From IMG/VR virus record IMGVR_UViG_3300020152_000015, positions 1 through 40,452 of that record: DNA of 40,452 bases; one strand, written 5' to 3'. Source of the DNA: a virus. Shown here in pieces: positions 12,630-33,829 of this stretch (its first letter is position 1; each line of letters opens with the position of its first letter). A model generated the notes under the pieces. That model had not been told where the DNA came from. It saw only the letters and a program-made list of their open reading frames with translations, and did no database searches. Made by a program: the position numbers and the translations under genes.

Positions 12630-13595
12630 CGTCTGTGTCCCTTGCTGTTGCACGTCCGCCGCGGCCGCGGCGCGGCCCGTGCGGGAGGGGGGCCGAGCCG
12701 CGCTCAGCTCGGCGAGAAGGTCCTCGAAGTTGCCCAGGCGGTCGGCGAGCCCGGCCGTGACCGCATCGGTGCCGATGCGCATGCCGCCGCGGATCGCGCG
12801 CACCGCCGCCTCGTCCATCGCCCCGGCGCGGTAGCGCGCCACGGCGCCGATGAAGATCTCCGTCAGGTGGTCGACGCGCGCCTGGACCACGCCGCGCCCC
12901 TCATCGGTGGTGATGTCCGGGCGCTTCTCCGGCGACTGGCTGGAAACGATCTCGATCGTCTTCACGCCGTCGCGGCTGTCGCGCTCGCGGGTGTCCGTCC
13001 ACACCTGCACGGTGCCGATCGAGCCCACCTCGGCGGTGGCGGCGAGCACGATCTCCGAGCACGCCGCGCCAATCCAGTAGCCGGCCGAGGCGCTCATGTT
13101 GGAGACGTAGGACACCACCCGCTTGCGGGCGCGGGTGCGGTGCACCATCTCGGCGAACTCGCCGATCCCCGCGGCCATGCCGCCGGGGGTGTCCTGCTCG
13201 AGGATGATCGCCTTGACGTCGGGGTTGTCCGCCGCCGCCATGAAGTCGCGCGCCAGCACCGCCAGCGACGTCGCGCCCGAAACCTCGGTGAACATGTTGG
13301 CGTATCGGAAGATCGGCCCGATCGTGGAGACGATCGCCACGCCGTTGCGCTCGGTCACCCGGTGGGTGTTCTCGAGCCGCCGGCCGAGCCGCGCCGCCAC
13401 CGCCTCCGGCGCCTCGCCGGAGCGGTTGGCGATCGCCAGGATGGTGGGGAGCCACTCCGGCGCGATCAGCCACGGCACCGACGCCACCGCCCGCGCCGCC
13501 AGGGTGGCGACGTCGCCGGCGATGATTGGCGCCGTGGCGTCATGGTGGCGTGGCGCCATGGCGTCCGCCTCGGGGTCCGGCCGCTGCTCACCCAT
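12165..13595 (-). CDS. Capsid maturation protease of the S49 / SppA-like family (gpC-like) with C-terminal scaffold
   Basis: A 476-residue protein. Residues ~75-320 form the S49 serine peptidase: the loop DTPGGM at ~135-140, the nucleophile motif MSASAGYW with likely Ser170, GSIGTV at ~191, and a candidate catalytic Lys near 224 (SSQSPEKRPD). It cleaves scaffold and portal during head maturation. A Gln/Ala-rich linker joins it to the scaffold domain (from 323). The start ATG 13595 has a GAGGAGGAG ribosome site and overlaps the portal stop by 8 nt. Oddity: residues ~10-23 (MAPRHHDATAP) are encoded by an octamer repeat array, so this N-terminus looks like an insertion. Confidence 0.92.
   Translation of the reverse strand: MGEQRPDPEADAMAPRHHDATAPIIAGDVATLAARAVASVPWLIAPEWLPTILAIANRSGEAPEAVAARLGRRLENTHRVTERNGVAIVSTIGPIFRYANMFTEVSGATSLAVLARDFMAAADNPDVKAIILEQDTPGGMAAGIGEFAEMVHRTRARKRVVSYVSNMSASAGYWIGAACSEIVLAATAEVGSIGTVQVWTDTRERDSRDGVKTIEIVSSQSPEKRPDITTDEGRGVVQARVDHLTEIFIGAVARYRAGAMDEAAVRAIRGGMRIGTDAVTAGLADRLGNFEDLLAELSAARPPSRTGRAAAAADVQQQGTQTMDKDTLLKDHPDVAAAVRADGAAAERARIGAILALKRPKGHEDLIGKAIEDGKTTAAEVGAAILAAEMEKGPRVLEQLRTDEQEAKDKGTAPAAPRSAAPASDVDASTLPLEERAKLAWDKDADLRAEFGGKFEAYLAYEKAAEGGRFKVLGAR
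13528..13567. repeat. Octamer array A (candidate centromere), five units
   Basis: Five phased 8-bp units: GGCGCCGT, GGCGTCAT, GGTGGCGT, GGCGCCAT, GGCGTCCG. It lies inside the N-terminal codons of the capsid protease. It shares unit, length and phasing with five other arrays in this genome, which is hard to explain by protein coding. Confidence 0.75.
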
Positions 13596-15198
13596 TGCCC
13601 TGCTCCTCCTCGTCCTTAGCCTCGTCCTCGTCCTCGTCCGCCGGAGCGGCCGGGGGTGCGGCGGCGGCCGGCGCCGGGGCGCCGAGCCCCGCCGCCCGGC
13701 GCAGCCGCTCCTCTTTGGCCCGCTGCGGCAGGTTGCGCTCCCAATCGCCGCCGGTGGTGGCGGCGGTGATCTGCGAGAGCGTCTTGACCCCCAGGGCGGC
13801 CCACTTCTCCGCCGCGGTGGCGTCCTTGACCGGATCGAGCGAGATCGGCGCGTCCCCGATCCACTCGCACCCGCAGTAGGCGGCGCGCACGAAGGGGTCG
13901 GCGAAGAACCCCGGCGCGTCGAGCCAGCCGCGGGCGATCGCCTCGGTGAGCAGGCTCTCGTAAAACGGCTGGCAGTAGCCGGCCGCCAGCCACACCCGGC
14001 GCCGGCGGAACGCCTGCCACGCCATTTCGAGCGCCGCGCGCGAGGCGCTGTAGCTCGCCGTGAAGTGCTTGATCACCACCTCAAAGGGCAGCTCGAGGGC
14101 GACGCCGATCTGGCGCAGGATCGCCTGCACGAAGGGATCGAAGGCGGCGCTCGGGCGCCCCGGCGTGAAGGACTGGATCTGCTCGTTCGGCAACAGGTCG
14201 AAGATGAGCCCGGCCTCGGTGACGGCGATGTTGCTCGCCCCCGCCCCGCCGGCGCCGGCCGCCTTCTGCTCGAGCGAGGAGGCTCCGGTGCCGTCCTCGG
14301 TCTTCACCCCCACGGCGAAGCAGGCGTTGACCACCGCCGCCATGATCTCGGCTTCCGAGTACTTTGAGAGCTGCTTGAAATGCTCGATCACCGGCGCCAG
14401 GAACGGCACGCCGCGCGCCAGATCCGGGCGCAGCCGCAGAAAGACGTGGTGCACGTTGCGGCGGCCGCTGGTGGGGGCAAACACCGGCACCCGCGCCCAC
14501 TTGAGCCCGTGCGCGCCGCGCTCGCCGGGGTGGCGGTCGGTGACGTGGTAGGCCACCGGGGCGCCGTTCTCATCGAACTCGACGCCGCCGGCGAGCGTGG
14601 CGGTGTCCACCCGGCGGGACGGGTTGCACACCCGATCGGCTTCGATGAGCTGCACCTTGAGCCCGAAGGGCGAGCCGGGGCGCTCGAGGAAGCGCTCCGC
14701 CGCGAAGACGTCGCCGGAGCTGAGCGCCGAGCGCAGCGCCAGCGATTGCGTCTCGTAGAAGGTGCTGGTGCGGGTGAGGTCGCACTCGCGCGAGCCCGCC
14801 CAGGTCTCGAAGATGCGCGCCGCGTCCTGCTCCCAGCGATCGGCCTCGGCCTCGCTCAGCCCGAGGAACGCCCGGTCGATCGACGGCCGCGCCCGCAAGC
14901 CGGTGCCCACCACGTTGGTGTCGTAGGTGTTGAGGGCGCCGGCCGCCAGCGGCGCGTTGCGGTCGAGATCGCGCGAGCGGGCGCGCAGCTCCTCGAGATC
15001 GGGCAGCGTGTCGGCGTTCGGCGAGCCGCCGCCCGGCGCCCAGCCCTGGGTGGCGGTGCGGCTGCGCTTGGCGCCCTGGTAGCCGCCGGCCACCGCGAAC
15101 ACGGTGCGGGCGCGCAGCCGCTCCACCCCGGCCGCCGGGCTGACGTAGGCAATCGCGCGGTCGATCCAGTTGAGCGGGACGGGCTTGCGCATGCTCAC
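13588..15198 (-). CDS. Portal protein, lambda gpB family
   Basis: A 536-residue lambda-type portal (Phage_portal_2). The N-terminal part has SPNADTLPDLEELRARSRDLDRN and LNTYDTNVVGTGL; the core has RCEC-like DLTRTSTFYETQSLALRSAL, LIEADRVCNPSRR and VHHVFLRLRPDLARGVPFLAP; later FEVVIKHFTASYSASRAALEM. Twelve copies form the channel at one head vertex through which DNA enters. The start is GTG 15198, overlapping the gpW-like stop as GTGA (ATG 15192 is an alternative). The last ~40 residues are Ala/Pro and acidic (DEDEDEAKDEEEQ), probably disordered. Confidence 0.94.
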   Translation of the reverse strand: MSMRKPVPLNWIDRAIAYVSPAAGVERLRARTVFAVAGGYQGAKRSRTATQGWAPGGGSPNADTLPDLEELRARSRDLDRNAPLAAGALNTYDTNVVGTGLRARPSIDRAFLGLSEAEADRWEQDAARIFETWAGSRECDLTRTSTFYETQSLALRSALSSGDVFAAERFLERPGSPFGLKVQLIEADRVCNPSRRVDTATLAGGVEFDENGAPVAYHVTDRHPGERGAHGLKWARVPVFAPTSGRRNVHHVFLRLRPDLARGVPFLAPVIEHFKQLSKYSEAEIMAAVVNACFAVGVKTEDGTGASSLEQKAAGAGGAGASNIAVTEAGLIFDLLPNEQIQSFTPGRPSAAFDPFVQAILRQIGVALELPFEVVIKHFTASYSASRAALEMAWQAFRRRRVWLAAGYCQPFYESLLTEAIARGWLDAPGFFADPFVRAAYCGCEWIGDAPISLDPVKDATAAEKWAALGVKTLSQITAATTGGDWERNLPQRAKEERLRRAAGLGAPAPAAAAPPAAPADEDEDEAKDEEEQGNG

Positions 15199-15404
15199 CC
15201 CACCATCGCGCCGCGGCGGAACCGCACGCCGGCGGTGCCGCGCCTGACCAGCCCCAACAGGCGCTCCTCACGCGCGTACAGCGTCGCCAGATCGCCCCGC
15301 GTCAGCGTGCGGCCGTCCATCTCGTAGGACTGCGCGCCGCCCTCCACCTCGGCGATCGCCGCCTGGACGCTCTCGAGCTGCTGCTCATAGGTCTTGATTG
15401 CCAT
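15195..15404 (-). CDS. Head-to-tail joining protein, gpW-like
   Basis: A 69-residue protein (MAIKTYEQQLESVQAAIAEV...) with GRTLTRGDLATLYAREERLL, matching the size and helix-hairpin-helix pattern of lambda gpW, which is 68 residues. gpW plugs the portal after packaging and is needed before the tail can join. The order terminase large, gpW, portal is the same as lambda A-W-B. It overlaps both neighbours by one to three bases. Confidence 0.85.
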   Translation of the reverse strand: MAIKTYEQQLESVQAAIAEVEGGAQSYEMDGRTLTRGDLATLYAREERLLGLVRRGTAGVRFRRGAMVG

Positions 15405-17479
15405 CAGATCGCCACCCTCCCCCGCATGCCGCGCCGGCGCGCGCCGGCCACGGCCGCCGCCGCCACCGGCGCGGCCACCCGCACCGGCGCCGCCGGCGGC
15501 TCGTCCTCGATCTCCACCGCCTCGGCCTCGCCGTCCTCGATCGCGCCCGCCGCGGCCTCACCGTCCCCGGCCGTGCCCGCCGCGGGCGCCGGGCGCGCCG
15601 GCACCGCGGCGAGCGGCCCGCCGCCCCACAGCACGGCAAGATCGCCCTGGGCCGGCGGGCCGGCGGCGGCGCGCTCGGCCGCCAGCGCCGCCCAGGCGGC
15701 ATCCGACAGCTTGTCCATGCCGGCGCGGCACGCGGCCGCCCAGGCGTAGACGCGGCAGTCCAACGGCTCGTTGCGGCCGGTCTTCTTCCACCGCCGCCGG
15801 TCGTAGCCGCCCTTGCTCTCATCGCTGATCAGCGTCTCCGCGGTCAGCCCGCGGAAGTAGTCCTCCGGGTAATCGGCCGGGAAATGGCAGTAGCCGCGCG
15901 GGACGCTGCGGCCGTCGGCGCCCGGCGCCAGCCCGAGGCGGTCGTAGATCTCGCGCTTCGCGTCCCAGGTCCCGACCGGGTAATACGCGTGCCCGCGCTT
16001 GATGGTGCGGCCGTTCTCCTTGAACTGGACGTAGGCGCGCCGGCCGAGCACCGGCACCTTCCAGCCGTCCACGCCCTTGACGGCGATCGCCCGCATGCGG
16101 CCGCGCACGAAGGTCTGAACGGTCTGGGTGCGGTAGCCCTCATCGACGGCGAGGACTTCGATCGGCAGCGCCGCGCCGCGGCTGTCGAAGAACGTCTCCT
16201 CGTAGAGCGCCGCCAGCGCCCGCCAGCACGGATCGTCGGCGTCGGCGGTGTTGCCGTAGAACACCCGGTAATCGATCGAATAGGCGACCTCGCCCGGCGC
16301 CCAGCCCACCACCTCCACCTCGAGGCGGTCGCCCTGGACGTCGCAGCCGGCGGTGAGGAAACACGCCGCGGACGGCACCGTGTTGCGGCGGTAGGCGTCG
16401 GCGGCGCGGGCGCGCTCGGCCAGCGCCTCCCACGGCGGCGCCTCGCCCCGTTCCTCGAAGGTCTCGCCCAAGTAGGTGTTGGTGAACACCTTTTCCGCCT
16501 TCGGATCGCCCTCGGCCGCCTCATGCTTGCGGGCCATCTGCTCCCAGGTGACGAACGGCGAGTACAGCGCCGAAATGTGGAAGCCAACCGCCTTGCCGGG
16601 GCCGGGCGCCGTCGCCAGCCAGCGGCCGCCGGCGAGCATCGCCGGCTTGTGCTTGTGGGCGATGTCGGCGCCGCAGCCGGCGCAGACGTAGACGGCGGTT
16701 TCCGGGGCGCCCTTGGTCCACTGGACGCGCTCCCACACGAGGCGCTGCTCGTGCCCGCATTGGGGATGCGGGCAGCGCACCATGTAAAAGCGCTTGTCGC
16801 TCGCCTCAAACGCCTTCTCGATCTTCGAGAAGCCCTTGAGCGTCGGGGTGGAGACCTCGAAGATCTTGCGGTTCCAGAAGGTTTCGCAGCGCTTGTCGGC
16901 CAGATCGGAGGGGTCGCCCTCGCCGTCCACCTCGTCCGGCCAGCCGTCGAGATCGTCCTTGAGCAGGTAGCGGATCGAGCGCTGGCGCAGGCCGGCGGCC
17001 GAGTTGGCGCCGGTGAGGACGAGGAAGCCGCCGGGGAAGCGTTTAAACCGGGTGGCGGAGCCGCCGTCGCGGCTTTTCTGCTCGACCACCCGCTTGCGGG
17101 CGATCGCCGTCGCCTCGATCGTCGGGCCGAGCTTCTCCACCGAGAAGGCGCGGGCGAGGTCGATCGACGGCTGGACCACCATCGCCGGGCCGGCGGCGGC
17201 GCACGCCACGAACATCAGCCAGTTGGTGGCAAACGCGGTGCCGGCGACCTGGGCGGACTTCATCAGCACCACGCGCTCGGCCGGGTGCGACGGCGACAAC
17301 ACGTCCTGGATTTCCCGGCCGAACGGCACCAACGCGTTGTCCCAGGGGCCGGGGCGCGCCGTCACCTCGGGCGGCAGCACCACGTGCGCGGCGGCCCACT
17401 CCGACACCTTGAGATCGGGATCGGGCTCGAGCCCGGCGGCGAACGCCTCGCCCCAGGTCCGCCCCGCGTCGGCGAACAT
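15404..17479 (-). CDS. Terminase large subunit, lambda gpA family
   Basis: A 691-residue motor-nuclease of the GpA family. The ATPase has the deviant Walker A KSAQVAGT at residues 74-81 and LKDDLDGWPDEVDGEGD as the Walker B region; zinc-type pairs CPHPQC and CAGC lie around residues 225-260. The C-terminal nuclease has AGCDVQGDRLEVEVVGW (metal-binding Asp) and VDEGYRT. It translocates DNA into the head and cuts concatemers; the gpA type usually acts at cos sites. The C-terminal ~90 residues are Ala/Pro-rich. The start ATG 17479 follows the small subunit stop directly. Confidence 0.95.
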   Translation of the reverse strand: MFADAGRTWGEAFAAGLEPDPDLKVSEWAAAHVVLPPEVTARPGPWDNALVPFGREIQDVLSPSHPAERVVLMKSAQVAGTAFATNWLMFVACAAAGPAMVVQPSIDLARAFSVEKLGPTIEATAIARKRVVEQKSRDGGSATRFKRFPGGFLVLTGANSAAGLRQRSIRYLLKDDLDGWPDEVDGEGDPSDLADKRCETFWNRKIFEVSTPTLKGFSKIEKAFEASDKRFYMVRCPHPQCGHEQRLVWERVQWTKGAPETAVYVCAGCGADIAHKHKPAMLAGGRWLATAPGPGKAVGFHISALYSPFVTWEQMARKHEAAEGDPKAEKVFTNTYLGETFEERGEAPPWEALAERARAADAYRRNTVPSAACFLTAGCDVQGDRLEVEVVGWAPGEVAYSIDYRVFYGNTADADDPCWRALAALYEETFFDSRGAALPIEVLAVDEGYRTQTVQTFVRGRMRAIAVKGVDGWKVPVLGRRAYVQFKENGRTIKRGHAYYPVGTWDAKREIYDRLGLAPGADGRSVPRGYCHFPADYPEDYFRGLTAETLISDESKGGYDRRRWKKTGRNEPLDCRVYAWAAACRAGMDKLSDAAWAALAAERAAAGPPAQGDLAVLWGGGPLAAVPARPAPAAGTAGDGEAAAGAIEDGEAEAVEIEDEPPAAPVRVAAPVAAAAVAGARRRGMRGRVAI

Positions 17480-18091
17480 CTACGCCTCGCCCATCGGTTC
17501 GCCGATGGCGTCGGGGAAGCTCTCGCGCACCGCCTTGGCGTAGGCGCGCAGCGCCTCGGACAGCTCGAGGGCGAGGCGGCGGGCGATCACGTGCTCATCG
17601 GTCTCGAGCGCGAACAGCGGGCCGAGCTTGCCGGGCAGCGCCAGCAGCGCGTCGCGCAGACCGCGCGCCGTCTCGCCGGCGACCTGGGCGACGTCGGCGC
17701 GCTTGACCAGCCCGCCGGCGCGCTCCTCGAGGTCGATCCGGCGGCGCTCCACCTCGAGGCGCTCGCGCTCGGAGCGGTGGTCCATGTAGGCGCCGCCCCC
17801 ACGCCCCCCGTCGGGCTTTGCCCGTCCCGCGTCCGCGGGGTCCGACGCCGGAAGCGCCTCGGCCGCCGGGGCGGGCTCCGCCACGGCGGCGCCGGCGCCG
17901 AGGGCGTTGGCGGCGACGCGGCCGGGATCGCGCAACGCCTCGTAGGCGGCGCGCGCCGCCGCCGGATCGAGCTTGGCCTTGCCGTCGGCCCCGGTGGTGA
18001 CGGGGAGCCGGCCCTGCTTCACGAGCTTGCAGACGTAGGCGGGCGACACGCCCACCAGCGCCGCGAACTCCTTTTGCGTCACCAGCTCCAC
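17480..18091 (-). CDS. Terminase small subunit, Nu1-like
   Basis: A 203-residue protein with an N-terminal helix-turn-helix (VTQKEFAALVGVSPAYVCKLVKQGRLP, the excisionase/Nu1 winged helix), a Pro/Ala linker at ~55-95, then a charged helical region (RSERERLEVERRRIDLEERAG) for assembly and large-subunit binding. Nu1-type subunits recognise cosB DNA upstream of their own gene. The start is GTG 18091, six bases after GGAGGGG. It is the first gene of the late block; three GGTTAACC palindromes lie just upstream and are candidate binding sites. Confidence 0.9.
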   Translation of the reverse strand: MELVTQKEFAALVGVSPAYVCKLVKQGRLPVTTGADGKAKLDPAAARAAYEALRDPGRVAANALGAGAAVAEPAPAAEALPASDPADAGRAKPDGGRGGGAYMDHRSERERLEVERRRIDLEERAGGLVKRADVAQVAGETARGLRDALLALPGKLGPLFALETDEHVIARRLALELSEALRAYAKAVRESFPDAIGEPMGEA

Positions 18092-18106
18092 CGTTCACCC
18101 CTCCAT

Positions 18107-18136
18107 CCGGTTAACCGGGCGGCGCGCCGGTTAACC
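18107..18136. promoter_or_regulatory. Paired GGTTAACC palindromes upstream of small terminase (cosB or late operator candidate)
   Basis: CCGGTTAACCGG at 18107-18118 and CCGGTTAACC at 18127-18136 are 20 bp apart, about two helical turns. A third copy (GCGGTTAACCGC) is at 18509-18520. I noticed no other copies elsewhere. Their place just ahead of the terminase and late genes suits either terminase recognition or late transcription control. Confidence 0.5.
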
Positions 18137-18230
18137 CATTGACGCGCCCACCCACTGGCGGAGCCGCGCGCGGTTTTGGCCCGTATACACCCGGCTCCCG
18201 GAAGGACCCGCGTGCCCGCAACACTCTTGC

Positions 18231-18247
18231 GCGACACAATGTGTCGC
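18231..18247. promoter_or_regulatory. 17-bp perfect palindrome in the late leader region
   Basis: GCGACACA-A-TGTGTCGC, 8-bp arms around one base, between the early terminators and the small terminase. It may be an operator for late transcription or part of the cos region. No promoter could be fixed with confidence here. The rest of 18137-18330 shows nothing else I recognise. Confidence 0.45.
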
Positions 18248-18330
18248 CGATGGGGCGCGCCGCGCAATAAACCGTCGCCGACGCACCCCGTCGCCGCCCC
18301 GCGCCGCCGCCAACCCCTTGATCGGGCACG

Positions 18331-18363
18331 AAAAAGGCGCCGCGGCGGTGAGGCCGCGGCGCC
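18331..18363 (-). terminator. Rho-independent terminator, leftward
   Basis: A 10-bp perfect stem (18336-18345 with 18354-18363, 8-nt loop) followed on the minus strand by five T residues (18331-18335). It lies between the early gene ending at 18513 and the late operon, and would insulate late genes from early transcription. Confidence 0.85.
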
Positions 18364-18403
18364 AGTGCCCAACAAACGGGGAGGAAACGCCCGGAGGCGG
18401 AGC

Positions 18404-18444
18404 CCAAAACGAAAGCGCCCGGTGGGGTCTCCCCCGCCGGGCGC
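18404..18444 (-). terminator. Second rho-independent terminator, leftward
   Basis: An 8-bp stem (18415-18422 with 18437-18444) followed on the minus strand by the T-rich tail TTTCGTTTT. It stands in tandem with the terminator at 18331, directly after the early gene. Tandem terminators before the late genes point to an antitermination or late-promoter switch. Confidence 0.75.
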
Positions 18445-18508
18445 TCGTGTGGCTCGTGTCGTTTGTCAATCAACCGCCGCCCGAAGTCAAGCGGCGAATT
18501 CACCGCCC

Positions 18509-18520
18509 GCGGTTAACCGC
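18509..18520. promoter_or_regulatory. Third GGTTAACC palindrome
   Basis: GCGGTTAACCGC, a perfect 12-bp palindrome overlapping the stop codon of the early gene. It belongs to the set at 18107-18136. Confidence 0.4.
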
Positions 18521-19196
18521 GCCCCGCCCCGGCGAGCGGCGCCCCGTCGATCGCCTGCCCGAGCCGCTCCCAGGGCGTGGCCGGCGGCAGCGCCGCGGTG
18601 ACCCGGTGGGCGCGCAGCATGCCCGGCTCGGCGCGCAGCCGGACGGCCAGCCGGGCGAGCGCGGCGGCCCACTCGAGCCACTCGAAGCGCGCCGCCTCCA
18701 CCAGCGCCGGCGGGTCGAGATACTCGACGTGGCACCACTCGGCCTTGCCGGTCGCCCCGAAGTGCATCTTCGGCCGCCCGCGGGCGTTGAGCACCGCCGC
18801 CGCCCGCGGCCGCGCCGTCGGCATCCAGTCCGGCCGCGACAGCCCCTTGCCGTGCAGCACCAGCAGCGCCGCGCCGATCCCGCCAGCGGCGCTGATCAGC
18901 GCGTGCACCGCCTCGGCGTCGGGGTGCACGCCGGGATCGGCGACGGCGAGCGCGGCAAAGCCGGAGGTGTCGATCGAGCAGCCCAGGCGGCCGTTGCGCC
19001 CGACCGCGGCCGTCGCCGTCGAGCCGCCGCCGCGCAACAGGACGCGATCGGCGACGCCGACGCCGGCGAGGTGGGCGCGCTGGCGGTGGTAGGTCCAGCC
19101 CACGAGGGCCTCGGCGGACACCGCCTCGCGCCCCGCCGTCACGGGGCGGTAACGGCGGGCGGTGGCGGCGTTACCTGTGGCGTTACCGTCCGGCAT
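18513..19196 (-). CDS. Early protein of unknown function
   Basis: The start chosen is ATG 19196, behind AAGGGATAGGA, giving 227 residues; a longer frame runs into the repeat region. The protein has an Ala-rich, moderately Arg-rich body with SPACED strands (LGCSIDTSGFAALAVAD), a segment ISAAGGIGAALLVLHGKGLSRPDW, and ARGRPKMHFGATGKAEWCHVEYLDPPA, then helices. I do not recognise the family. Its first codons (GNATGNAATARRYRPV) are themselves spelled by GGTAAC repeats. Being the last gene of the primase/helicase block, next to a probable origin, it may act in DNA replication or recombination. Confidence 0.75.
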   Translation of the reverse strand: MPDGNATGNAATARRYRPVTAGREAVSAEALVGWTYHRQRAHLAGVGVADRVLLRGGGSTATAAVGRNGRLGCSIDTSGFAALAVADPGVHPDAEAVHALISAAGGIGAALLVLHGKGLSRPDWMPTARPRAAAVLNARGRPKMHFGATGKAEWCHVEYLDPPALVEAARFEWLEWAAALARLAVRLRAEPGMLRAHRVTAALPPATPWERLGQAIDGAPLAGAGRG

Positions 19197-19428
19197 GCTT
19201 CCTATCCCTTTGATCGACTTATGTTTTTCTATCTCAGTCTTGACAGAGGTAACGAGGTAACGGGGTAACGGCGGTTCGGTCCCAATACGGGCGTGCACAC
19301 GGATTGCGTCTGTATGGGATGGCCGGCGTTACCGCGTTACCTCGGCCCCGCGGAGGGGGCTCAACCCCGCGCGGCGCCTGGGCCGGGGCGGGGTAACAGC
19401 GCGGTAACGCGGCGGTAACGCGGTAACG
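19148..19428. other. GGTAACG repeat array, candidate lytic replication origin
   Basis: Twelve copies of GGTAAC(G) occur in 281 bp: forward at 19148, 19248, 19256, 19264, 19392, 19403, 19414 and 19422, and reverse at 19169, 19181, 19327 and 19335. Several are phased at exactly 8 or 11 bp. They flank an AT-rich segment (19199-19245). The array lies between the helicase gene and the unknown early gene. Iterons next to a primase/helicase recall the phage P4 arrangement, where the alpha protein binds GGTGAACA-type repeats. Origin function is inferred. Confidence 0.6.
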
Positions 19429-19430
19429 CT

Positions 19431-19502
19431 GGCGCCACGGCGCCACGACGCCACGGCGTCGGGACGCCACGCCACCACGGCGGCACGGCGCCATGGTGGC
19501 GC
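19431..19502. repeat. Octamer array B (candidate centromere), nine units
   Basis: The longest octamer array: GGCGCCAC twice, GACGCCAC, GGCGTCGG, GACGCCAC, GCCACCAC, GGCGGCAC, GGCGCCAT, GGTGGCGC, all in one 8-bp register. It abuts the GGTAACG array directly and is non-coding. Confidence 0.8.
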
Positions 19503-19621
19503 CGGGGCCGGGAATGCAGGCACAACCAGGCCGGCGCCATTGAGGCTTTACGTCCTAGCACATAAGACGAAACTCCGCAACCCCGCCGCGTCCGGCTGCA
19601 CCCCACAGGGTGTAAGGGAGC

Positions 19622-19643: not shown

Positions 19644-19652
19644 CGCGGGAGG

Positions 19653-26228: not shown

Positions 26229-26237
26229 GGGGCGATC

Positions 26238-27018: not shown

Positions 27019-27033
27019 GGTCTCCCTGTTGTG

Positions 27034-27074
27034 GCGCCGGGGAGTGTGATCCTCCCCGGCGCGTGGCGGAAGGG
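27034..27074 (-). promoter_or_regulatory. Leader hairpin plus conserved 19-mer (copy 1)
   Basis: An 11-bp stem (27034-27044 with 27052-27062) follows a 19-nt block, 27056-27074, that is identical to 27625-27643. It lies just ahead of the ribosome site of the gene at 27018. Stem sequence differs between the copies while pairing is kept, which suggests a conserved RNA structure. Confidence 0.6.
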
Positions 27075-27079
27075 CTCGG

Positions 27080-27583: not shown

Positions 27584-27605
27584 GGGGCGAGGCTCCTCGG
27601 GCTGG

Positions 27606-27643
27606 GCCGGCGCCTGGGGCGGCGCCGGCGCGTGGCGGAAGGG
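27606..27643 (-). promoter_or_regulatory. Leader hairpin plus conserved 19-mer (copy 2)
   Basis: A 9-bp stem (27606-27614 with 27621-27629) next to the same 19-mer (27625-27643), upstream of the gene at 27583. Second copy of the element at 27034. Confidence 0.6.
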
Positions 27644-27667
27644 TTCGATAGCTCCGCGTTTAAACGT

Positions 27668-27707
27668 GGCGCCATGACGCCATGGTGTCACGGCGTCATG
27701 GCGCCGT
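27668..27707. repeat. Octamer array C (candidate centromere), five units
   Basis: GGCGCCAT, GACGCCAT, GGTGTCAC, GGCGTCAT, GGCGCCGT in register. It overlaps the last codons of the gene ending at 27688 and a possible promoter for 27583 (TTGACG-N17-CACCAT on the minus strand). Confidence 0.78.
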
Positions 27708-28101
27708 CAAACGGATTTATGCGATACGCATAGTTACGCGGGGCCGCCCGCTCATCCCGCCGCGCCAGGACCATGAGCCGGCTCAATACGCTGTGGTGCC
27801 GGCGGCCCATCGCCCGGCCGATCGCCGCATAGGTCATGCCCGATCGCGCCAGCCGGAGGAGACGCTCGTCCTCCTCCGGCGTGAAGCGCCGCACCGGACG
27901 GCCGTTGCGCTCGACCACCATCGGCCCGACCGGCGACGCCTTGACCGGCTCCGGCGGCTCGGCTCCGAGCTTGAGGCACTGCCATTCCACCGCGCCGCGC
28001 GAGCACCCGACGATCGCGGCGATCTTCGGATAGGAGAGCCCCTCCTCGCGGAGTTCGCAGATCCGGTCAATCTGCTCCTGGGTGAGGCGGGCGTACCTCA
28101 T
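27688..28101 (-). CDS. GcrA-like / double HTH regulator
   Basis: ATG 28101 overlaps the PP-loop gene stop (ATGA); 137 residues. The N-terminal unit TQEQIDRICELREEGLSYPKIAAIVGCSRGAVEWQCLKLG and the C-terminal RRFTPEEDERLLRLARSGMTYAAIGRAMGRRHHSVLSRLM are two helix-turn-helix domains of the Myb/SANT and GcrA kind. Probably a transcription regulator. Its 3' end also contains a TATGCG operator (27718-27732, coding NYAYRIN) and octamer array C. Confidence 0.82.
   Translation of the reverse strand: MRYARLTQEQIDRICELREEGLSYPKIAAIVGCSRGAVEWQCLKLGAEPPEPVKASPVGPMVVERNGRPVRRFTPEEDERLLRLARSGMTYAAIGRAMGRRHHSVLSRLMVLARRDERAAPRNYAYRINPFDGAMTP
27718..27732. promoter_or_regulatory. Operator, TATGCG-N3-CGCATA family, inside a coding sequence
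   Basis: TATGCG-ATA-CGCATA, perfect, within the last codons of the GcrA-like gene and 20 bp from octamer array C. It may control the gene at 27583. Confidence 0.7.
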
Positions 28102-29027
28102 GGCTCCGCCTCCTCCACCGCGAAGCACCCGCAGCCGCCGATATCGTGCCTATCGACCTGGGCGCCGGCCTCGATCCGCTCGCGCAGTTCCCGCAACGTC
28201 ATCGGCCGGCGCTTCCCGCCACCGCGGCGGTCCACCAGCATGGCGATATCAGTTCGGCCCAGGTATTCGCGGATCTCCTGCTCTCGACGCTCATGGTAGG
28301 CGTAGCGCGCCGGCATGGTGCGCAACAGGTTCGCGAAATGTCCGTGTCCAGCCTTGATACAGAAGCCCCCGCAATTGTTGTGAGAGAACCCCAGAGCGTA
28401 GAGGCGCGCCGAAGCGATCCCCTCCGCTTCGAGCGCCCGGCGAATGTCGTCTTTCAAGACGTAAGGGGCGCCACACAACGGGGCCTCGTAGCGCCAGCCG
28501 ACAGCGGCTCGGCGATCACGAAGCTCCGTGTATCGGTGCTCCTCGGTCCAGTCGATCCCGACATAAACGACCGTTTGAGCCGGATCGCAATTCTCCCGAA
28601 GCCACCGATCGGCCAACTGCCGCTTGAGGATCTTTGAGCACGGATCGTGCCGCGAGTTGCCAAGGAACCGCTCATCAAAGAATACTTGCCACGGAGTTCG
28701 CCCCTCGGCGACCCACACAAGACGAGGCAGGACCTCCGCGGCCGCCGCCGCGAGATCCTGCAAGAACCGGCCGCGCGCGGCCTCGTCTTCCATTGGCGGA
28801 ATGCCGGCCAACCGATCAAGGAGCCGCTGCGGCGCCGGCACTCCAAAGACGTTCGCCGCCCCCTCGATCAGGAAGCGATAGAGGTCCTCATCCTCCACAA
28901 GGGTGTCGCTGAAATAGAGGTACAGACGATCCACGCCATGCGCACCCACAACGCGCTTGGCAGAGCCCCACGAGCCCTCACCGCCGGAAAACATCTGCAC
29001 GTGCACCGGTCCGCTGTCGGTAAGCAT
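28098..29027 (-). CDS. PP-loop ATPase, PAPS reductase-like family
   Basis: ATG 29027; 309 residues. FSGGEGSWGSAKRVV near residue ~13 is the PP-loop with the usual Asp replaced by Gly (SGGxGS), followed by YLYFSDTLVEDEDLYRFL, then TPWQVFFDERFLGNSRHDPC, CSKILKRQLADRWL, YVGIDWTEEHRYTE, and SHNNCGGFCIKAGHGHFANLL. This matches phage relatives of PAPS reductases; from memory the Gly variant is common there. The Cys set could hold a metal or cluster. Chemistry unknown; adenylation and sulfur or base modification of tRNA or DNA are options. Confidence 0.85.
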   Translation of the reverse strand: MLTDSGPVHVQMFSGGEGSWGSAKRVVGAHGVDRLYLYFSDTLVEDEDLYRFLIEGAANVFGVPAPQRLLDRLAGIPPMEDEAARGRFLQDLAAAAAEVLPRLVWVAEGRTPWQVFFDERFLGNSRHDPCSKILKRQLADRWLRENCDPAQTVVYVGIDWTEEHRYTELRDRRAAVGWRYEAPLCGAPYVLKDDIRRALEAEGIASARLYALGFSHNNCGGFCIKAGHGHFANLLRTMPARYAYHERREQEIREYLGRTDIAMLVDRRGGGKRRPMTLRELRERIEAGAQVDRHDIGGCGCFAVEEAEP

Positions 29028-29035
29028 GGGGCGCC

Positions 29036-29269
29036 TCAGATCTCGGCGCGATGCGCGCGGTATGTGCCCTCCACCTCGCGGCGATAGAGGTCGTACCACG
29101 TTTCCCCGTCCGGCAAGACAACGGCCCGCGCGAGGCGGGCAACCGAATGGTACAGGTCAATAATCGCGTCGGCTCCGGCCAGACCGGGCGACGTCTTGTA
29201 GTACTCCGCACACCGCTCGGCGTCGCCCGCGACGGCCGCCAGTTCGCGCACCACTCCATTTCTCGACAT
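29036..29269 (-). CDS. Small protein of unknown function
   Basis: ATG 29269 behind GAGGG; 77 residues. Starts MSRNGVVRELAAVAGDAERC and continues as helical segments (AIIDLYHSVARLARAVVL, TWYDLYRREVEGTYRAHR). It sits between the RMF-like and PP-loop genes. No family recognised. Confidence 0.7.
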   Translation of the reverse strand: MSRNGVVRELAAVAGDAERCAEYYKTSPGLAGADAIIDLYHSVARLARAVVLPDGETWYDLYRREVEGTYRAHRAEI

Positions 29270-29338
29270 ACAGGCGCCCTCTTTTTGAATGTTTAAACAT
29301 CCGGCAACCGGCCGGCGCGGTGCCACAACCTCACCCTT

Positions 29339-29527
29339 TCACCGCGACCGCCACCGGGCGAGGCCGATCGCGGCCTCCGCGCTCCAGCACCAGCCGGTGA
29401 ACCACGCCTCAGCGGCAGCGCTGCCCGACGGGTACGGGTTGACGTTGAAGTCGCGCCCCTCACGCTGGGCCTGGGCACCCTGGGCGCGCCAACGCACGAC
29501 AAGATCCACCACCTTCGCACCCACCAT
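29339..29527 (-). CDS. RMF/CrpP-like small protein
   Basis: ATG 29527 behind GAGG; 62 residues. RWRAQGAQAQREGRDFNVNPY followed by AEAWFTGWCWSAEAA matches the ribosome modulation factor pattern (A..G..A...G....NPY......W..GW), also seen in CrpP-like proteins on mobile elements. RMF dimerises ribosomes; CrpP has been linked to fluoroquinolone tolerance. Which role, if any, applies here is unknown. It is the first gene of the leftward accessory operon. Confidence 0.78.
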   Translation of the reverse strand: MVGAKVVDLVVRWRAQGAQAQREGRDFNVNPYPSGSAAAEAWFTGWCWSAEAAIGLARWRSR

Positions 29528-29551
29528 GAGACACCTCACCTTGCGCGTGAT

Positions 29552-29568
29552 GTTTCGATTTCCGAAAC
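29552..29568. promoter_or_regulatory. Operator, GTTTCG-N5-CGAAAC family
   Basis: GTTTCG-ATTTC-CGAAAC, perfect, over the -10 region of the leftward accessory promoter. Confidence 0.8.
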
Positions 29569-29595
29569 ATGCCACGCCCAGGCGCCGGCGATCAA
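29566..29595 (-). promoter_or_regulatory. Promoter of the leftward accessory operon
   Basis: Minus strand TTGATC (29590-29595), 18-bp spacer, CATGTT (29566-29571), with the operator starting in the -10 as it does at 24740. It should drive 29527 to 26686. Confidence 0.65.
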
Positions 29596-29648
29596 GCGGG
29601 CTTTCATGCCAAAATCGAAACGAACCGCCACCGCCCACGGCGCCGCGC

Positions 29649-29677
29649 TTGCGCCGGGCTTATGCGCGCCGCATACT
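29649..29677 (+). promoter_or_regulatory. Promoter with TATGCG operator
   Basis: TTGCGC (29649-29654), 17-bp spacer, CATACT (29672-29677); operator TATGCG-CGC-CGCATA at 29661-29675. It drives the regulator at 29702, divergent from the leftward accessory operon. Confidence 0.72.
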
Positions 29678-29701
29678 CCGCCCTCAGCGGAAGAGGATCG
29701 G

Positions 29702-29980
29702 ATGGACAAAGACGGATACGCCGCCGCCGTGGATGAGCTGGGCATCACCGACGCCGAGGTTGCGCGGCGGCTCTCGATCGCCGGCGGCTACACGGTGCAG
29801 CAAACCACGCTGTGGCGCATCCGCATCGGCGAGACCCGCCGCGTGCCGCCCGCCCTCGCCGCGTACCTGTATCTGCTCCTCGCCATCAAGCGCGCCGGCG
29901 TGGACGCGACGCCCTTCCTCGAGCGCGCCGCCAGCCTGCCCGCCGGCGCCGGAGCCCGCCGCCCGCATGAGGACGGATAG
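29702..29980 (+). CDS. Small HTH regulator
   Basis: ATG 29702 behind AGAGGA; 92 residues. LGITDAEVARRLSIAGGYTVQQTTLWRIRIGETRRVPPALAAYL is a Cro/XRE-type helix-turn-helix with the recognition helix ending LWRI. Its own promoter carries a TATGCG operator, so it is a candidate autoregulator and a candidate reader of the TATGCG family. Confidence 0.78.
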   Translation: MDKDGYAAAVDELGITDAEVARRLSIAGGYTVQQTTLWRIRIGETRRVPPALAAYLYLLLAIKRAGVDATPFLERAASLPAGAGARRPHEDG

Positions 29981-30500
29981 ACCCCTGATCGCCCCGCCCC
30001 GGCTCGTCCGCGCCGCGCTGGCGGGGGCGGTGGCCGAGCTGCGCCTCCCCGCCGGCCATCCGCTCACCGAGGCGATCCCCGGCGATCGGCTCTATCTGCG
30101 CGAGGAGGTCCACCTCGAGGGCCGCGCCGGCGAGCCCCCGACCGGCGCCGTCTACGCGATCGACGGCGCGCCGGTGGACCTCGGGCGCTTTCCCGCCGGC
30201 AAGGTGCTGCCCCCGGCCTTCCAGCCGGTGCGCTACCCCGGCGCCTGGGCCGCGCGGCTGTGGTTCCGCATCGTGCGCAAGCACTATCACCCGCTCGCCC
30301 AGATCTCCGAGGCCGAGGCGATCGCCGAGGGCATCCCGCCGGCGCCGGCGCGGCCGCGCGGCATGCCGGCGTGGGTGGCGCACCCCACCGCACGGGGCGA
30401 TCGCCTCCGCTTCTGGGATGCCGAGCACCCCGACCACCCGGCGGCGGGCAACCCGACCGCGCTCGCGCTCACGCTGGCGCCGATAGACCGCCCGTCCTGA
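29967..30500 (+). CDS. ASCH-domain protein
   Basis: ATG 29967 (overlapping the previous gene by 14 nt); 177 residues. IPGDRLYLREEVHLEG, the GAWAARLWFRIVRKHYHPL strand region and QISEAEAIAEGIPP near residue ~115 are the ASCH features common in phages (LWVREtw... and LqdIseedaiaEG). ASCH folds resemble PUA domains and bind RNA. Its role here is not known. Confidence 0.82.
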   Translation: MRTDRPLIAPPRLVRAALAGAVAELRLPAGHPLTEAIPGDRLYLREEVHLEGRAGEPPTGAVYAIDGAPVDLGRFPAGKVLPPAFQPVRYPGAWAARLWFRIVRKHYHPLAQISEAEAIAEGIPPAPARPRGMPAWVAHPTARGDRLRFWDAEHPDHPAAGNPTALALTLAPIDRPS

Positions 30501-30549
30501 TCGAGGACGCGCCGCCCATCCGCCGGGCGCCTGGTTGGGCGTTCCGTCT

Positions 30550-30564
30550 TATGCGAGCCGCATA
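30550..30564. promoter_or_regulatory. Operator, TATGCG-N3-CGCATA family, ahead of parA
   Basis: TATGCG-AGC-CGCATA, perfect. It lies 69 bp before the parA start and next to octamer array D, so partition genes may be under the same regulator. Confidence 0.75.
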
Positions 30565-30578
30565 AATTCCCGCTTTAC

Positions 30579-30642
30579 GACGCCGTGGCGCCATGGCATC
30601 GTGACGCCACAGCGCCACGAAGGAATGACGCCATGCCACCAA
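30579..30642. repeat. Octamer array D over the parA promoter and ribosome site
   Basis: GACGCCGT, GGCGCCAT, GGCATCGT, GACGCCAC, AGCGCCAC, then the Shine-Dalgarno unit GAAGGAAT, then GACGCCAT and GCCACCAA, all in one 8-bp register. A weak promoter (TTTACG 30574, CATCGT 30597) lies under it. It fits an operator and centromere for ParB autoregulation. Confidence 0.8.
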
Positions 30643-31313
30643 GACGAAAACCCACGCCGCTGCGCGCGGTCGCCGTGATGATGCAGAAGGGCGGGGCCGG
30701 CAAAACCACGCTTGCCGTGCACCTCGCCGTTGCCGCCGGCGCCGCCGGCGAGCGCGCCGTGCTGATCGACGCCGATCACCCGCAAGCCTCCGCCTCGGTG
30801 TGGGGCGAGCTGCGACAAGACAGCGAGCCGCCGGTGATCACCGTTGAACCGATCAACGTCGCCGCGGTGCTCGCGGCGGCGCGCGAGGACGGCCGCACGC
30901 TGGCGATCATCGACACCAGCCCACACGCCACGCCGTCGGCCGCCGAGGCGGCGAACGCCGCCGATTTCATCCTGATCCCCTGCCAACCGAGCCTGTTCGA
31001 TCTGGCGGCGGCCGAGCGCTCGGCGGCGATCGCCAAGGCCGCCCAGGCGAAGGCGGCCGGCGCCGGCCGGCGCGTCGGCGCCGCCTTCGTGCTCAACGGC
31101 GTGCCGGCGCGCGAGGATGATCCGGAGGTGATCGACGCGCGCGCCGCCCTCGAGGCGATCCTCCCGGTGGCGCCCATGGCGATCGGCCGGCGCAAGCCGT
31201 TCGTCCGCGCCGTGGCGCACGGTGAAGCGGTCACCGAGTTTCAGCGCCGCGGCAAGGCCGCCGGCGAAATCTCCGCCCTGCTCACCTGGATCAAAGGAGC
31301 CCTCGAGCGATGA
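30633..31313 (+). CDS. parA: ParA partition ATPase
   Basis: ATG 30633 behind GAAGGA; 226 residues. The deviant Walker A QKGGAGKTTLAVH (KGGxGKTT, residues ~19-26) and LIDADHPQASASVWG are diagnostic of type Ib ParA; Walker B IIDTSPH follows at ~90, then DFILIPCQPSLFDL. It uses ATP to place plasmid copies on the nucleoid. It lacks an N-terminal DNA-binding extension, as is usual when a small ribbon-helix-helix ParB regulates the operon. Coupled to the next gene (ATGA). Confidence 0.93.
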   Translation: MPPRRKPTPLRAVAVMMQKGGAGKTTLAVHLAVAAGAAGERAVLIDADHPQASASVWGELRQDSEPPVITVEPINVAAVLAAAREDGRTLAIIDTSPHATPSAAEAANAADFILIPCQPSLFDLAAAERSAAIAKAAQAKAAGAGRRVGAAFVLNGVPAREDDPEVIDARAALEAILPVAPMAIGRRKPFVRAVAHGEAVTEFQRRGKAAGEISALLTWIKGALER

Positions 31314-31588
31314 GCGACAAGAGCGCAAAGAAGACCTCCTCCGGCCTCGCCGCGTGGCAGAACCGCCGCCCGGCCGCCGGCGCGGACCCGGCGCCCCCGC
31401 CCGCCGCCCCGGCCGGCGACGAACGGCTGGTGCCGGTGACGATCCGCTTCACCGAGGAGCAGCACCGCCGCGTGGCCGAGCTGGCGCGCGCCACGCCCGG
31501 CAAGCGCAAGCGCACCGCCAGCGTGCAGGAACTCGTGATCGAGGGGCTGTCGCGGCTGTTCGCCGAACGCGGCCTCCCGCCGCTGTGA
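31310..31588 (+). CDS. Ribbon-helix-helix ParB-like centromere-binding protein
   Basis: ATG 31310 overlaps the parA stop; 92 residues. The N-terminal ~45 residues are disordered (Pro/Ala, Lys/Ser), typical of the arm that stimulates ParA. Residues ~45-85 (LVPVTIRFTEEQHRRVAELARA, TASVQELVIEGLSRLF) form a strand followed by two helices, the ribbon-helix-helix fold of omega and ParG-type proteins. These bind short tandem repeats as dimers and repress the par operon. The phased octamer arrays are the likely binding sites. Confidence 0.85.
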   Translation: MSDKSAKKTSSGLAAWQNRRPAAGADPAPPPAAPAGDERLVPVTIRFTEEQHRRVAELARATPGKRKRTASVQELVIEGLSRLFAERGLPPL

Positions 31589-31593
31589 GGCAT

Positions 31594-31625
31594 GGCGCCA
31601 CGGCGTCACGGCGCCGTGGCGTCTT
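31594..31625. repeat. Octamer array E (candidate centromere), between parB-like and rep genes
   Basis: GGCGCCAC, GGCGTCAC, GGCGCCGT, GGCGTCTT in register, covering the convergent ends of the partition and rep genes. Confidence 0.78.
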
Positions 31626-32433
31626 CCTTGGCGCCGGTGATCCGCGCCTTGCGGCCGGCGCTGTGGCGGCGAAGCTCCTGAAAGGCTTCCTTCAACTCAT
31701 CCGGCGTCTTGCGCGCCCAGGCGAGCGTGATCGCCTCCACAGCCCGCCCCTTCTTCACCGGCTCGATCGACACCCAATAATCGCCGAGCGCATTGACCTC
31801 GGCCACCGCGGGCTTGAGCGCCCAGGCGTTGAGGTTGCGGAACCCCTCGAGCTTGCCCGGCTCGACGCCGAGGTATGAACGGATCTCGTCCAGAGTAAAG
31901 GTCTGCGCAGACTGATAGATCATGTTGCCGCGCTTCTGCACCATCTCGTACAGCGCGAGCGCATACTTGCTCGACAGGTGCAACATGATGTCCCGCCGCA
32001 GTCGCCCGAAGGTCTCACTGTTGACGATCACCACGCGCATTTCTTCCGAGAAACGGTAGCGGAACATCCCGTCCGGAACGACGTCCTCATAGTTCGGGGC
32101 CAGGAGCTGCACGCGCAAGGTCTGCTCAATGTCCTTGCCCCTGCGCTCGTCCCGACGCTTGATGCGCACGCGCAGGATTGCCGACATGAGGCGCTCAATG
32201 CTGTCGCCCAGGCGGTCATTGCTCTCGTGCGAGCCGCGCAGGTCAGCCTTTGGAATGACGTGCTGCACCGGCTCGCCGATCCGGTCCCAAGCGTGCGCAA
32301 TGAGCAGGTTCCAGATCTTGCGGTCCTGCAACGTGAGCGGCGTCATTTCCACCACGTCGATCAGCTCGCCCGGCTTGATGATCGTATCGTGCGAAGGGCG
32401 CGCCTGGATGGTCTTGTAAGGCTCTGGCGTCAT
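31606..32433 (-). CDS. Plasmid replication initiator, Rep_3 family
   Basis: The start ATG 32433 is chosen because the likely -10 covers ATG 32466. 275 residues (MTPEPYKTIQARPSHDTI...). The pattern is the two-winged-helix initiator: KPGELIDVVEMTPLTLQDRKIWNLLIAHAW, RYRFSEEMRVVIVNSETFGR, SSKYALALYEMVQKRGN, FTLDEIRSYLGVEPGKLEGF and ITLAWARKTPDE. Such proteins bind iterons to open the origin and repress their own gene. It is expected to replicate the circular prophage. Array E overlaps its last codons. Confidence 0.9.
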   Translation of the reverse strand: MTPEPYKTIQARPSHDTIIKPGELIDVVEMTPLTLQDRKIWNLLIAHAWDRIGEPVQHVIPKADLRGSHESNDRLGDSIERLMSAILRVRIKRRDERRGKDIEQTLRVQLLAPNYEDVVPDGMFRYRFSEEMRVVIVNSETFGRLRRDIMLHLSSKYALALYEMVQKRGNMIYQSAQTFTLDEIRSYLGVEPGKLEGFRNLNAWALKPAVAEVNALGDYWVSIEPVKKGRAVEAITLAWARKTPDELKEAFQELRRHSAGRKARITGAKEDATAP

Positions 32434-32461
32434 GATCGGACCCCGTATGGTTTCGCCGGGA

Positions 32462-32505
32462 ACCATACATGTTAGTGTTAGGTGCCGTCAATTCTCACCT
32501 AACAC
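32462..32505 (-). promoter_or_regulatory. rep promoter with autoregulatory inverted repeat
   Basis: Minus strand TTGACG (32486-32491), 18-bp spacer, TATGGT (32462-32467). Ten-bp arms GTGTTAGGTG / CACCTAACAC (32475-32484, 32496-32505) flank the -35. The arm contains CCTAAC, the core of the iterons, so Rep itself probably represses here. Confidence 0.82.
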
Positions 32506-32520
32506 AGCGCCATGCGAGGA

Positions 32521-32776
32521 CGGTTAGGTTTGGGGCGGCGCAGCGAGGCGGACAAAGCGCAGCCACCCGCCCAAAACCTAACCGATGGGCCAGCCGCAAC
32601 CGGTGCCACGCCTGGGCCCGGTTGCCACCCGCCCAAAACCTAACCGTTCGCCGGGGGCCTGTGGACAACCGGGCCGCGGCCCGCACAACACCCCGCCCAA
32701 TCCCTAACCGTAGCCATCCCAAAACCTAACCGTTCGCCGCCCAATCCCTAACCCGACTCCGCCCAATCCCTAACCG
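32521..32776. other. Plasmid origin: Rep iterons
   Basis: A 17-bp iteron of the type CGCCCAAAACCTAACCG or CGCCCAATCCCTAACCG occurs at 32568, 32630, 32694, 32716, 32738 and 32760, with a reversed copy at 32521-32538. The last four are exactly 22 bp apart, two helical turns. Together with DnaA boxes and an AT-rich stretch this is a typical Rep_3 iteron origin. The iteron core matches the arms of the rep operator. Confidence 0.88.
32660..32668 (-). promoter_or_regulatory. DnaA box
   Basis: TGTGGACAA on the plus strand, that is TTGTCCACA, one base from TTATCCACA, among the iterons. Confidence 0.65.
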
Positions 32777-32780
32777 ATCG

Positions 32781-32850
32781 GGCACTTTTTCAGTTTCGGA
32801 ACAGTGACTTAGCCTTGGCGAACATAGAACAAGAAGAACAGAGAACCTTT
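32781..32850. other. AT-richer unwinding region candidate
   Basis: The most AT-rich stretch near the iterons, between the last iteron and the DnaA box pair. It is a candidate DNA unwinding element. It is also the 3' end of the reading frame 32790-33089. Confidence 0.55.
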
Positions 32851-33089
32851 AGGCTGTGGACAAACCGCGGCTGTGGACAAGCCGGCGCGGGCGGGACGGC
32901 CCGCCGCTCGGCCGCGTCCGCGAGCATCGCCCGCACACCGAGATCCACGAGCCGTTGCCCGAGCTGGACGGCGGCGGCGCCCTCGAGCACCCGCTCGCCC
33001 AGGAGCACGCCACCCTCTACGTGCAGCGTCACCCGGACCGTGCGCCCGCCGCCCGCCTCGGTCGCGGCCAGAAAGGTGCGCGGCCGCAT
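32790..33089 (-). CDS. Small protein at the end of the late operon
   Basis: ATG 33089 (or GTG 33092) overlaps the preceding stop; 99 residues. Residues 1-60 (FLAATEAGGGRTVRVTLHVEGGVLLGE, AVQLGQRLVDLGVRAML) look folded. Residues ~75-99 (HSLKVLCSSCSMFAKAKSLFRN) are encoded by the AT-rich origin sequence and DnaA boxes, and differ sharply in composition from the rest, as if the gene had been extended or truncated into the origin. Function unknown. Confidence 0.6.
   Translation of the reverse strand: MRPRTFLAATEAGGGRTVRVTLHVEGGVLLGERVLEGAAAVQLGQRLVDLGVRAMLADAAERRAVPPAPACPQPRFVHSLKVLCSSCSMFAKAKSLFRN
32855..32880 (-). promoter_or_regulatory. Two DnaA boxes
   Basis: TGTGGACAA at 32855-32863 and 32872-32880, 17 bp apart, next to the AT-rich region. 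Confidence 0.65.
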
Positions 33090-33739
33090 CACTTGCCGCG
33101 CCGGAACAGCCCGCCCAGGCGCCCGACCGCCCCCACCGCGCTCTCAACCGCGGCGCCCAGCTTCCCCTCCCCGCCCGCCACTTTGCCGGCCTCGCGCGCG
33201 AGGATGTAGGTCACCACCACCGCCGCCGCCGGCCCGGTGGCCTCGGCGTAGAGCGTGGCGTAGATCGAGCCGCCGGCGAACATCTGCCCGGCGATCGGCT
33301 CGATCCGCGTCGTCAGACCGAACGCCGCAAGGAGCGCGTTTACACACATCGCCGCGCCGTCGATCACGATCAGATAGAGCGGCACGAGCAACAGGTGCGA
33401 CATGCGCCGCACGATCACCGGGCGGGTGGTCATCCGCAGCCGCGCCACCTCGCCGGCGACCGCCGGCGGCAGCGCGCCCAGGACAGCCGCCGACACCTCG
33501 CCCTGCTCGAGCGTCAGGCGCTCGGTCTGCGCGCGGTAGAGCGTCACCTCGGCCTCGAAGCGCCGCGCCCAGGCGTCCGCCTGATCGGGCGGCAGCGCCT
33601 GCACCTCGGCGGCGAGCGCCACCGGCGACGTGGCGGCCGGCGGCGCGCCGGTGACGCCTTCATAGATCGCCTTGCCGGTGGCGAACAGGTCGGGCAGTTC
33701 GGAGAGCGCGGCGAGCGCCCCCATCAGAAGCGGAGCCAT
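33089..33739 (-). CDS. Putative second holin (3TM, gene-transfer-release type)
   Basis: ATG 33739 behind GAGGG; 216 residues. A helical N-terminal region (~40-100) ends in RMTTRPVIVRRM, followed by hydrophobic spans at ~114-140 (LLLVPLYLIVIDGAAMCVNALLAAFG) and ~155-180 (YATLYAEATGPAAAVVVTYILA). The layout resembles holins of the 3TM gene-transfer-agent type (PF11351-like). It lies after the endolysin and a terminator, so it may be expressed separately. An alternative is a phage membrane protein unrelated to lysis. Confidence 0.65.
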   Translation of the reverse strand: MAPLLMGALAALSELPDLFATGKAIYEGVTGAPPAATSPVALAAEVQALPPDQADAWARRFEAEVTLYRAQTERLTLEQGEVSAAVLGALPPAVAGEVARLRMTTRPVIVRRMSHLLLVPLYLIVIDGAAMCVNALLAAFGLTTRIEPIAGQMFAGGSIYATLYAEATGPAAAVVVTYILAREAGKVAGGEGKLGAAVESAVGAVGRLGGLFRRGK

Positions 33740-33753
33740 GTCGGAGATCCCTC

Positions 33754-33784
33754 AAAAACGGCACGGGCGCCCCGAAGGCGCCCG
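33754..33784 (-). terminator. Rho-independent terminator after the endolysin gene
   Basis: An 8-bp stem (33764-33771 with 33777-33784, 5-nt loop) followed on the minus strand by TGCCG and a T5 run (33754-33758). Confidence 0.8.
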
Positions 33785-33789
33785 CCGAT

Positions 33790-33829
33790 GGTTGCACGGT
33801 TGCGTGGCGCCACGGCGCCACGGCGTCAG
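33790..33829. repeat. Octamer array F (candidate centromere)
   Basis: Two degenerate units (GGTTGCAC, GGTTGCGT) then GGCGCCAC, GGCGCCAC, GGCGTCAG in register, overlapping the last codon of the endolysin gene. Confidence 0.7.

Follow-up and report, generated by a model that had tools for sequence, protein, structure and literature searches.

The virus genome analysed here, a single IMG/VR record of 40,452 bp that we refer to as the window, carries six arrays of a palindromic octamer. These are very probably the parS sites of its own ribbon-helix-helix (RHH) ParB, to judge from sequence comparison across replicons. The explanation as a whole, that of a phage-plasmid with a type Ib ParA and an RHH ParB that uses all six arrays as parS and autoregulates parAB, is in our judgment highly likely to be correct. 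The core plan of such a system, with a ParF-like ParA, an RHH ParB and 8-bp arrays on both sides of the operon, is known, for example, from RedRock. What differs in the window is that four arrays of an RHH system lie far from parAB, the six together being spread over half of the genome. This is a less usual variant, since RHH centromeres are generally described with a single array, or a few, next to the par genes. The features on which this reading is based are collected in Table 1.

Table 1. Coordinates of the par locus, the repeat arrays and the replication features in the window
Feature	Position	Strand	Remarks
Virus record	IMG/VR, 40,452 bp		GC 72%
parS array, 5 units (one weak)	13527..13566	.	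Portal/S49 peptidase junction, within S49 N-terminal extension
parS array, the longest, 9 units (two weak)	19430..19501	.	Large intergenic region between primase/helicase-like gene and terminase-side genes
parS array, 5 units	27667..27706	.	Overlaps 3' end of HTH regulator gene 27688-28128
Palindrome TTATGCGAGCCGCATAA, one of six such sites	30549..30565	.	Just upstream of parA array
parS array (parS-L), 8 unit positions, 7 matching	30578..30641	.	parA ribosome-binding site and start codon
parA, 226-aa type Ib (ParF-like) Walker ATPase without N-terminal HTH	30633..31313	+
parB, predicted 92-aa RHH centromere-binding protein	31310..31588	+	N-terminal tail motif (S/T)GLAA(F/W)
parS array (parS-R), 4 units	31593..31624	.	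Between convergent parB and rep
rep, Rep3-family plasmid replication initiator	31606..32466	-	Rep3_N 2.8e-9, Rep3_C 1.9e-12
Iterons (CCCAATCCCTAACC / AAAACCTAACC, about 22-bp spacing)	32522..32780	.	Upstream of rep
parS array, 3 units	33805..33828	.	3' end of phrog_3108 gene, adjoins terminator-like hairpin
Arrays are listed as parS on the reading argued in the text.

The window combines phage genes (a lambda-type portal, an S49 peptidase, a GpA-type large terminase, a small terminase and a primase) with plasmid genes (a Rep3 initiator with iterons, ParA and a small downstream partner). Its natural reading is that of a phage-plasmid, that is, a virus that seems to be maintained in its host in plasmid form. 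The ends of the record share an exact 127-bp overlap; read in the simplest way, the record is a circle of about 40.3 kb that represents the whole genome. Together, the Rep3 initiator and the terminal overlap support a plasmid prophage, which would be extrachromosomal, and the iterons upstream of rep would constitute the plasmid origin. Single-protein IMG/VR searches with ParB, ParA and Rep returned no close relatives, tblastn of ParB against PLSDB gave no match, and a scan of genome contigs did not improve on the viral ParA matches. In the portal relatives L010 to L014, several of which are fragments, neither ParA nor Rep was detectable.

ParA matches the Pfam families AAA_31/CbiA, its best sequence match in the PDB is ParF of TP228 (1.7e-31), and it scores 163 bits against NCBIfam NF041546, below the cut-off of 180. 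The parB gene lies directly downstream and overlaps parA. Its product gave no family match above a curated cut-off, with Pfam Antitox_RHH falling below it at 0.0087. Compared with plasmid-encoded partners of type Ib ParA proteins, ParB is 22 to 37% identical and has in common with them the N-terminal (S/T)GLAA(F/W) motif and the RHH region. An AlphaFold2 model based on 20 homologues predicts a disordered tail (residues 1 to 37), two helices (49 to 61 and 72 to 86) and, before the first helix, a confident segment that corresponds to the RHH strand. A fold search with the RHH monomer gave no significant match, as expected because the monomer is so small, and several RHH proteins were among the weak ones. 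We assign the 92-residue partner of ParA as an RHH ParB on the basis of this alignment and this model. The locus has the hallmarks of a type Ib ParABS system: a short Walker ParA without an HTH, a small predicted RHH partner downstream and phased repeats at the operon.

The first-pass annotation had described six arrays in strict 8-bp register; all six are present in the window in that register. The unit, given there as the asymmetric GGCGYCAY, is better described by the palindrome TGRCGYCA, most commonly in the form TGGCGCCA, and the arrays hold 5, 9, 5, 7, 4 and 3 units in map order. The array placed at 33790-33829 exists with a smaller extent, since two of its octamers do not match and three units remain instead of five. 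Similarly, the array said to lie over the parA promoter is indeed at parA but is not confined to a promoter, as it overlaps the start codon (ATG at 30633-30635) and the ribosome-binding site; its one non-matching octamer, CGAAGGAA, holds this presumed ribosome-binding site. Because simple autocorrelation failed to detect the arrays of the window itself, a palindromic phased model was used instead. The matrix was trained on the 30578 and 31593 arrays only, so that training and discovery were kept apart. It recovered exactly the other four arrays, with scores of 24 to 40, and nothing else in the window, whereas the maximum score in order-3 Markov shuffles (n = 100) was 23.4. The octamer-matrix scan against shuffled genomes that had been proposed as a check thus places all six arrays above every Markov null.

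At the sensitivity of these scans, we reject three readings of the arrays, namely a repeat from the host, a motif of terminators and noise arising from base composition, and consider their probability negligible. The genome is GC-rich (72%), as is the unit, which is moreover self-complementary and could form hairpins. Against this, no array scoring at least 5 arose in 180 Markov shuffles, the portal relatives L010 to L014 are without arrays (best score 8.6, versus 24 to 40), and only one of the six arrays adjoins a terminator-like hairpin. A 3-unit pattern search of IMG/VR gave a single hit, contig L009, in which we saw one short array but no par genes; it is probably a chance occurrence.

The assignment of the arrays as parS sites is made because of the specificity of the matrix, the linkage to parA, the 8-bp period in relatives and the covariation of the octamer with ParB. 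Run over 3.83 Mb of other DNA, the window unit matrix found 27 arrays scoring at least 20, none of them more than about 450 bp from a related parA or its partner gene, on Klebsiella, Laribacter and Thiothrix plasmids and on viral contigs. The plasmids that encode the homologous partners carry 8-bp phased arrays both at the start of parA and behind parB, and in the Thiothrix and Klebsiella plasmids, as in the window, the start codon is part of a unit (GACGCC-ATG or similar). This common geometry and position at homologous parA genes of plasmids and phages supports the parAB autoregulation suggested earlier, and the array at the parA start is probably an operator as well. Furthermore, 80 viral relatives collected with a ParA alignment were analysed de novo; in most of them, the leading period in the stretch before parA or after the partner gene was 8 bp. 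An alignment of ParB was too diverse for a collection scan. A Xanthomonas plasmid carrying a plant effector gene (L251) was left out, and only its par region (L035) was used.

The octamers differ widely among systems, yet they track ParB (Mantel r = 0.155, p = 0.0002, 45 systems). ParBs with a Thr-x-Arg strand (the window, L029, L030, L044 and L046) all go with TGACGTCA-type units, and those with a Thr-Val-Lys strand go with TACGTA-type units. This bears on another reading, in which the arrays bind a different regulator, either one of the HTH proteins or Rep, and the ParB gene lies near two of them by chance. Further palindromic site families in the window (TTATGCGnnnCGCATAA, GTTTAAAC and GGTAAC repeats) do imply several DNA-binding proteins. 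We nevertheless find this reading very improbable, as the linkage of arrays to parAB persists in many replicons that are unrelated and differ in their Rep and HTH genes, the octamer varies with ParB, and 8-bp tandem phasing of a palindromic unit suits RHH dimers. The linkage across replicons and the covariation likewise provide strong computational support for the earlier proposal that the arrays are parS-like sites through which the RHH protein acts in partition. Physical binding by ParB, a centromere role for each distant array and repression are what we infer from these patterns.

We propose that ParB dimers would bind head-to-tail on the TGRCGYCA units, one dimer per unit, and coat each array. 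ParB would load on the array at parA, on the one after parB and on the four dispersed ones, and its binding where parA has its start codon and ribosome-binding site would lead to parAB autoregulation. By analogy with ParG and omega, ParB may recruit ParA through its flexible N-terminal tail, and the ParA-ParB pair would then position the prophage plasmid, by movement or anchoring, when the cell divides. The 33805 array counts against the whole explanation, because it has only three units and full ParA activation by the ParB of pSM19035 needs at least four contiguous repeats (PMC9499535).

The placement of the distant arrays fits extra centromere sites located where harm is least better than it fits operators, although the arrays may also repress nearby genes. 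The stop codons of rep (31593 array), of the HTH gene (27667) and of the phrog_3108 gene (33805) all lie inside units, because the TGA...TCA unit gives stops on both strands. The 13527 array lies within an N-terminal extension of the S49 peptidase that is absent from relatives. Promoter scans beside distant arrays, those outside the 13527 region, gave nothing of the sigma-70 type, which at 72% GC is weak evidence either way. An alternative is that the distant arrays are mainly operators, with ParB as a second genome-wide prophage repressor, comparable to the operators/stoperators scattered in other temperate phages, and with partition served by the two parAB-flanking arrays only. RHH ParBs do control promoters, as the promoters of copS, delta and omega in pSM19035 are overlapped by parS sites (PMC9499535); moreover, a distant array of phage phiHAP-1 covers the repA start, and the 19430 array lies in an intergenic region upstream of terminase-side genes. 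We consider this alternative possible though unlikely, since three window arrays are on gene 3' ends and one is at the portal/S49 junction, with no recognisable promoters. The related suggestion that the arrays silence lytic or lysis genes is unsupported, as they lie mainly at gene ends or junctions and those scanned are without a sigma-70-type promoter.

The closest solved relative of the window ParA is ParF of TP228, whose parH centromere reportedly has a period of 8 bp. The two systems differ in the distribution of their sites, which is dispersed in the window. ParG of TP228 belongs to the RHH proteins and has a flexible tail; its binding sites are an array in which AT-rich spacers separate tetramer boxes, and an operator upstream of parFG. 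One centromere and one operator by the genes, and no dispersed sites, are described (PMC7308502). In pSM19035 delta/omega, an RHH ParB acts as both regulator and centromere-binding protein on six parS sites of 7 to 10 contiguous short repeats that overlap promoters (PMC9499535), reminiscent of the RHH ParB and six repeat arrays of the window. However, the pSM19035 repeats are 7-bp non-palindromic heptads and its sites all overlap promoters, whereas the window has an 8-bp palindrome and arrays that mostly appear not to. The mycobacteriophage RedRock has parS-L and parS-R, each with eight 8-bp repeats, and in Miko and Rachaly an additional parS directly follows repA (PMC7157519). Like RedRock, the window would form an extrachromosomal prophage with 8-bp arrays on both sides of parAB (30578-30641 and 31593-31624). 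The likeness seen here is one of site layout, and the window is of another phage type with a Rep3 replicon. Unlike the RedRock group, in which at most one extra site is reported, by repA, the window has four arrays 2 to 17 kb from parAB, two of them more than 10 kb away.

Dispersal recurs in other replicons and is neither unique to the window nor phage specific. We scanned whole records with seeds taken from the parAB flanks only, counting as distant any array more than 1.5 kb from parAB. At least two distant arrays were found in 9 of 22 phage records and in 2 of 10 plasmids, compared with 2 to 3% of decoy seeds in the same genomes; the difference between phages and plasmids is not significant (p = 0.063), and the plasmids are shorter. 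Among the isolates, the Halomonas phage phiHAP-1 (VP882 group; L124) has five predicted 8-bp ParB arrays (23790, 26510, 32946, 37254 and 39127), four of which are distant. They are placed where ORF28 and ORF29 meet, at parA, across the start of repA, behind ORF43 and close to the end of the genome. Like the window, it encodes a ParA of the type Ib family that is related to that of the window, with a small partner behind it, and its distant arrays are mostly at gene junctions, but its octamer is TACAWWTG-like and its prophage is linear with a protelomerase, whereas the window has TGRCGYCA and is probably circular. We found no report of dispersed arrays in phiHAP-1 or its relatives in the searchable literature, which is not proof of their absence. 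The most dispersed case seen was a 56-kb viral record (G014; L130 to L132) with about ten distant TGCGCAWW-type arrays. Three extra ParB-type arrays also occur on the Zymomonas plasmid pZMOB02 (L041; 20814-23640), 4 to 7 kb from parAB, where they lie near defence and transposase genes.

The centromere sites of N15 are said to be scattered and to be located in phage genes. As the first-pass annotation had suggested, N15 offers an analogy for scattered sites, although it uses a different, SopB-type ParB. The prophage of N15 is a plasmid, and its centromere sites are four in number and separate, IR1-4 (PMC7205306). The window resembles it in having several, here predicted, centromere sites dispersed over a phage genome. 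This is a likeness in how the systems would work, analogous and not homologous: SopB is an HTH-type ParB on single inverted repeats, whereas the window has a predicted RHH ParB and phased arrays. The scattered arrays of the window, of phiHAP-1 and of several other phage records are convergent with N15, and why phage-plasmids disperse their centromeres can now be tested in an isolate. In addition, a family-wide 8-bp palindromic code that tracks ParB would allow parS sites, ParB specificity and incompatibility groups to be predicted in many plasmids and phage-plasmids. We speculate, and regard it as doubtful, that plasmid prophages with type Ib par repeatedly spread parS over lytic and structural genes as a lysogeny device, in which ParB would decorate the whole prophage, couple segregation to genome-wide repression or compaction and mark newly entered DNA for partition.

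The window also contains other families of dispersed sites. The palindrome TTATGCGnnnCGCATAA occurs six times (24040, 24075, 24390, 27717, 29660 and 30549; 0.5 expected), and two copies are directly beside parS arrays, including the array at parA. These palindromes are likely operators of a phage repressor, the 30549 copy being a likely second operator at parA. An 8-bp palindrome, GTTTAAAC, is present eight times (1211, 10021, 11487, 17041, 21089, 26658, 27658 and 29291), against 0.03 expected and at most one in 100 shuffles; this second dispersed site family has one copy just before the 27667 array. Finally, GGTAAC is repeated twelve times within 19148-19429, on either strand and in part with 8-bp phasing, and these repeats abut the 19430 array. 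Next to the primase/helicase genes, this region is a candidate lytic replication origin, which would be the second origin of the genome.
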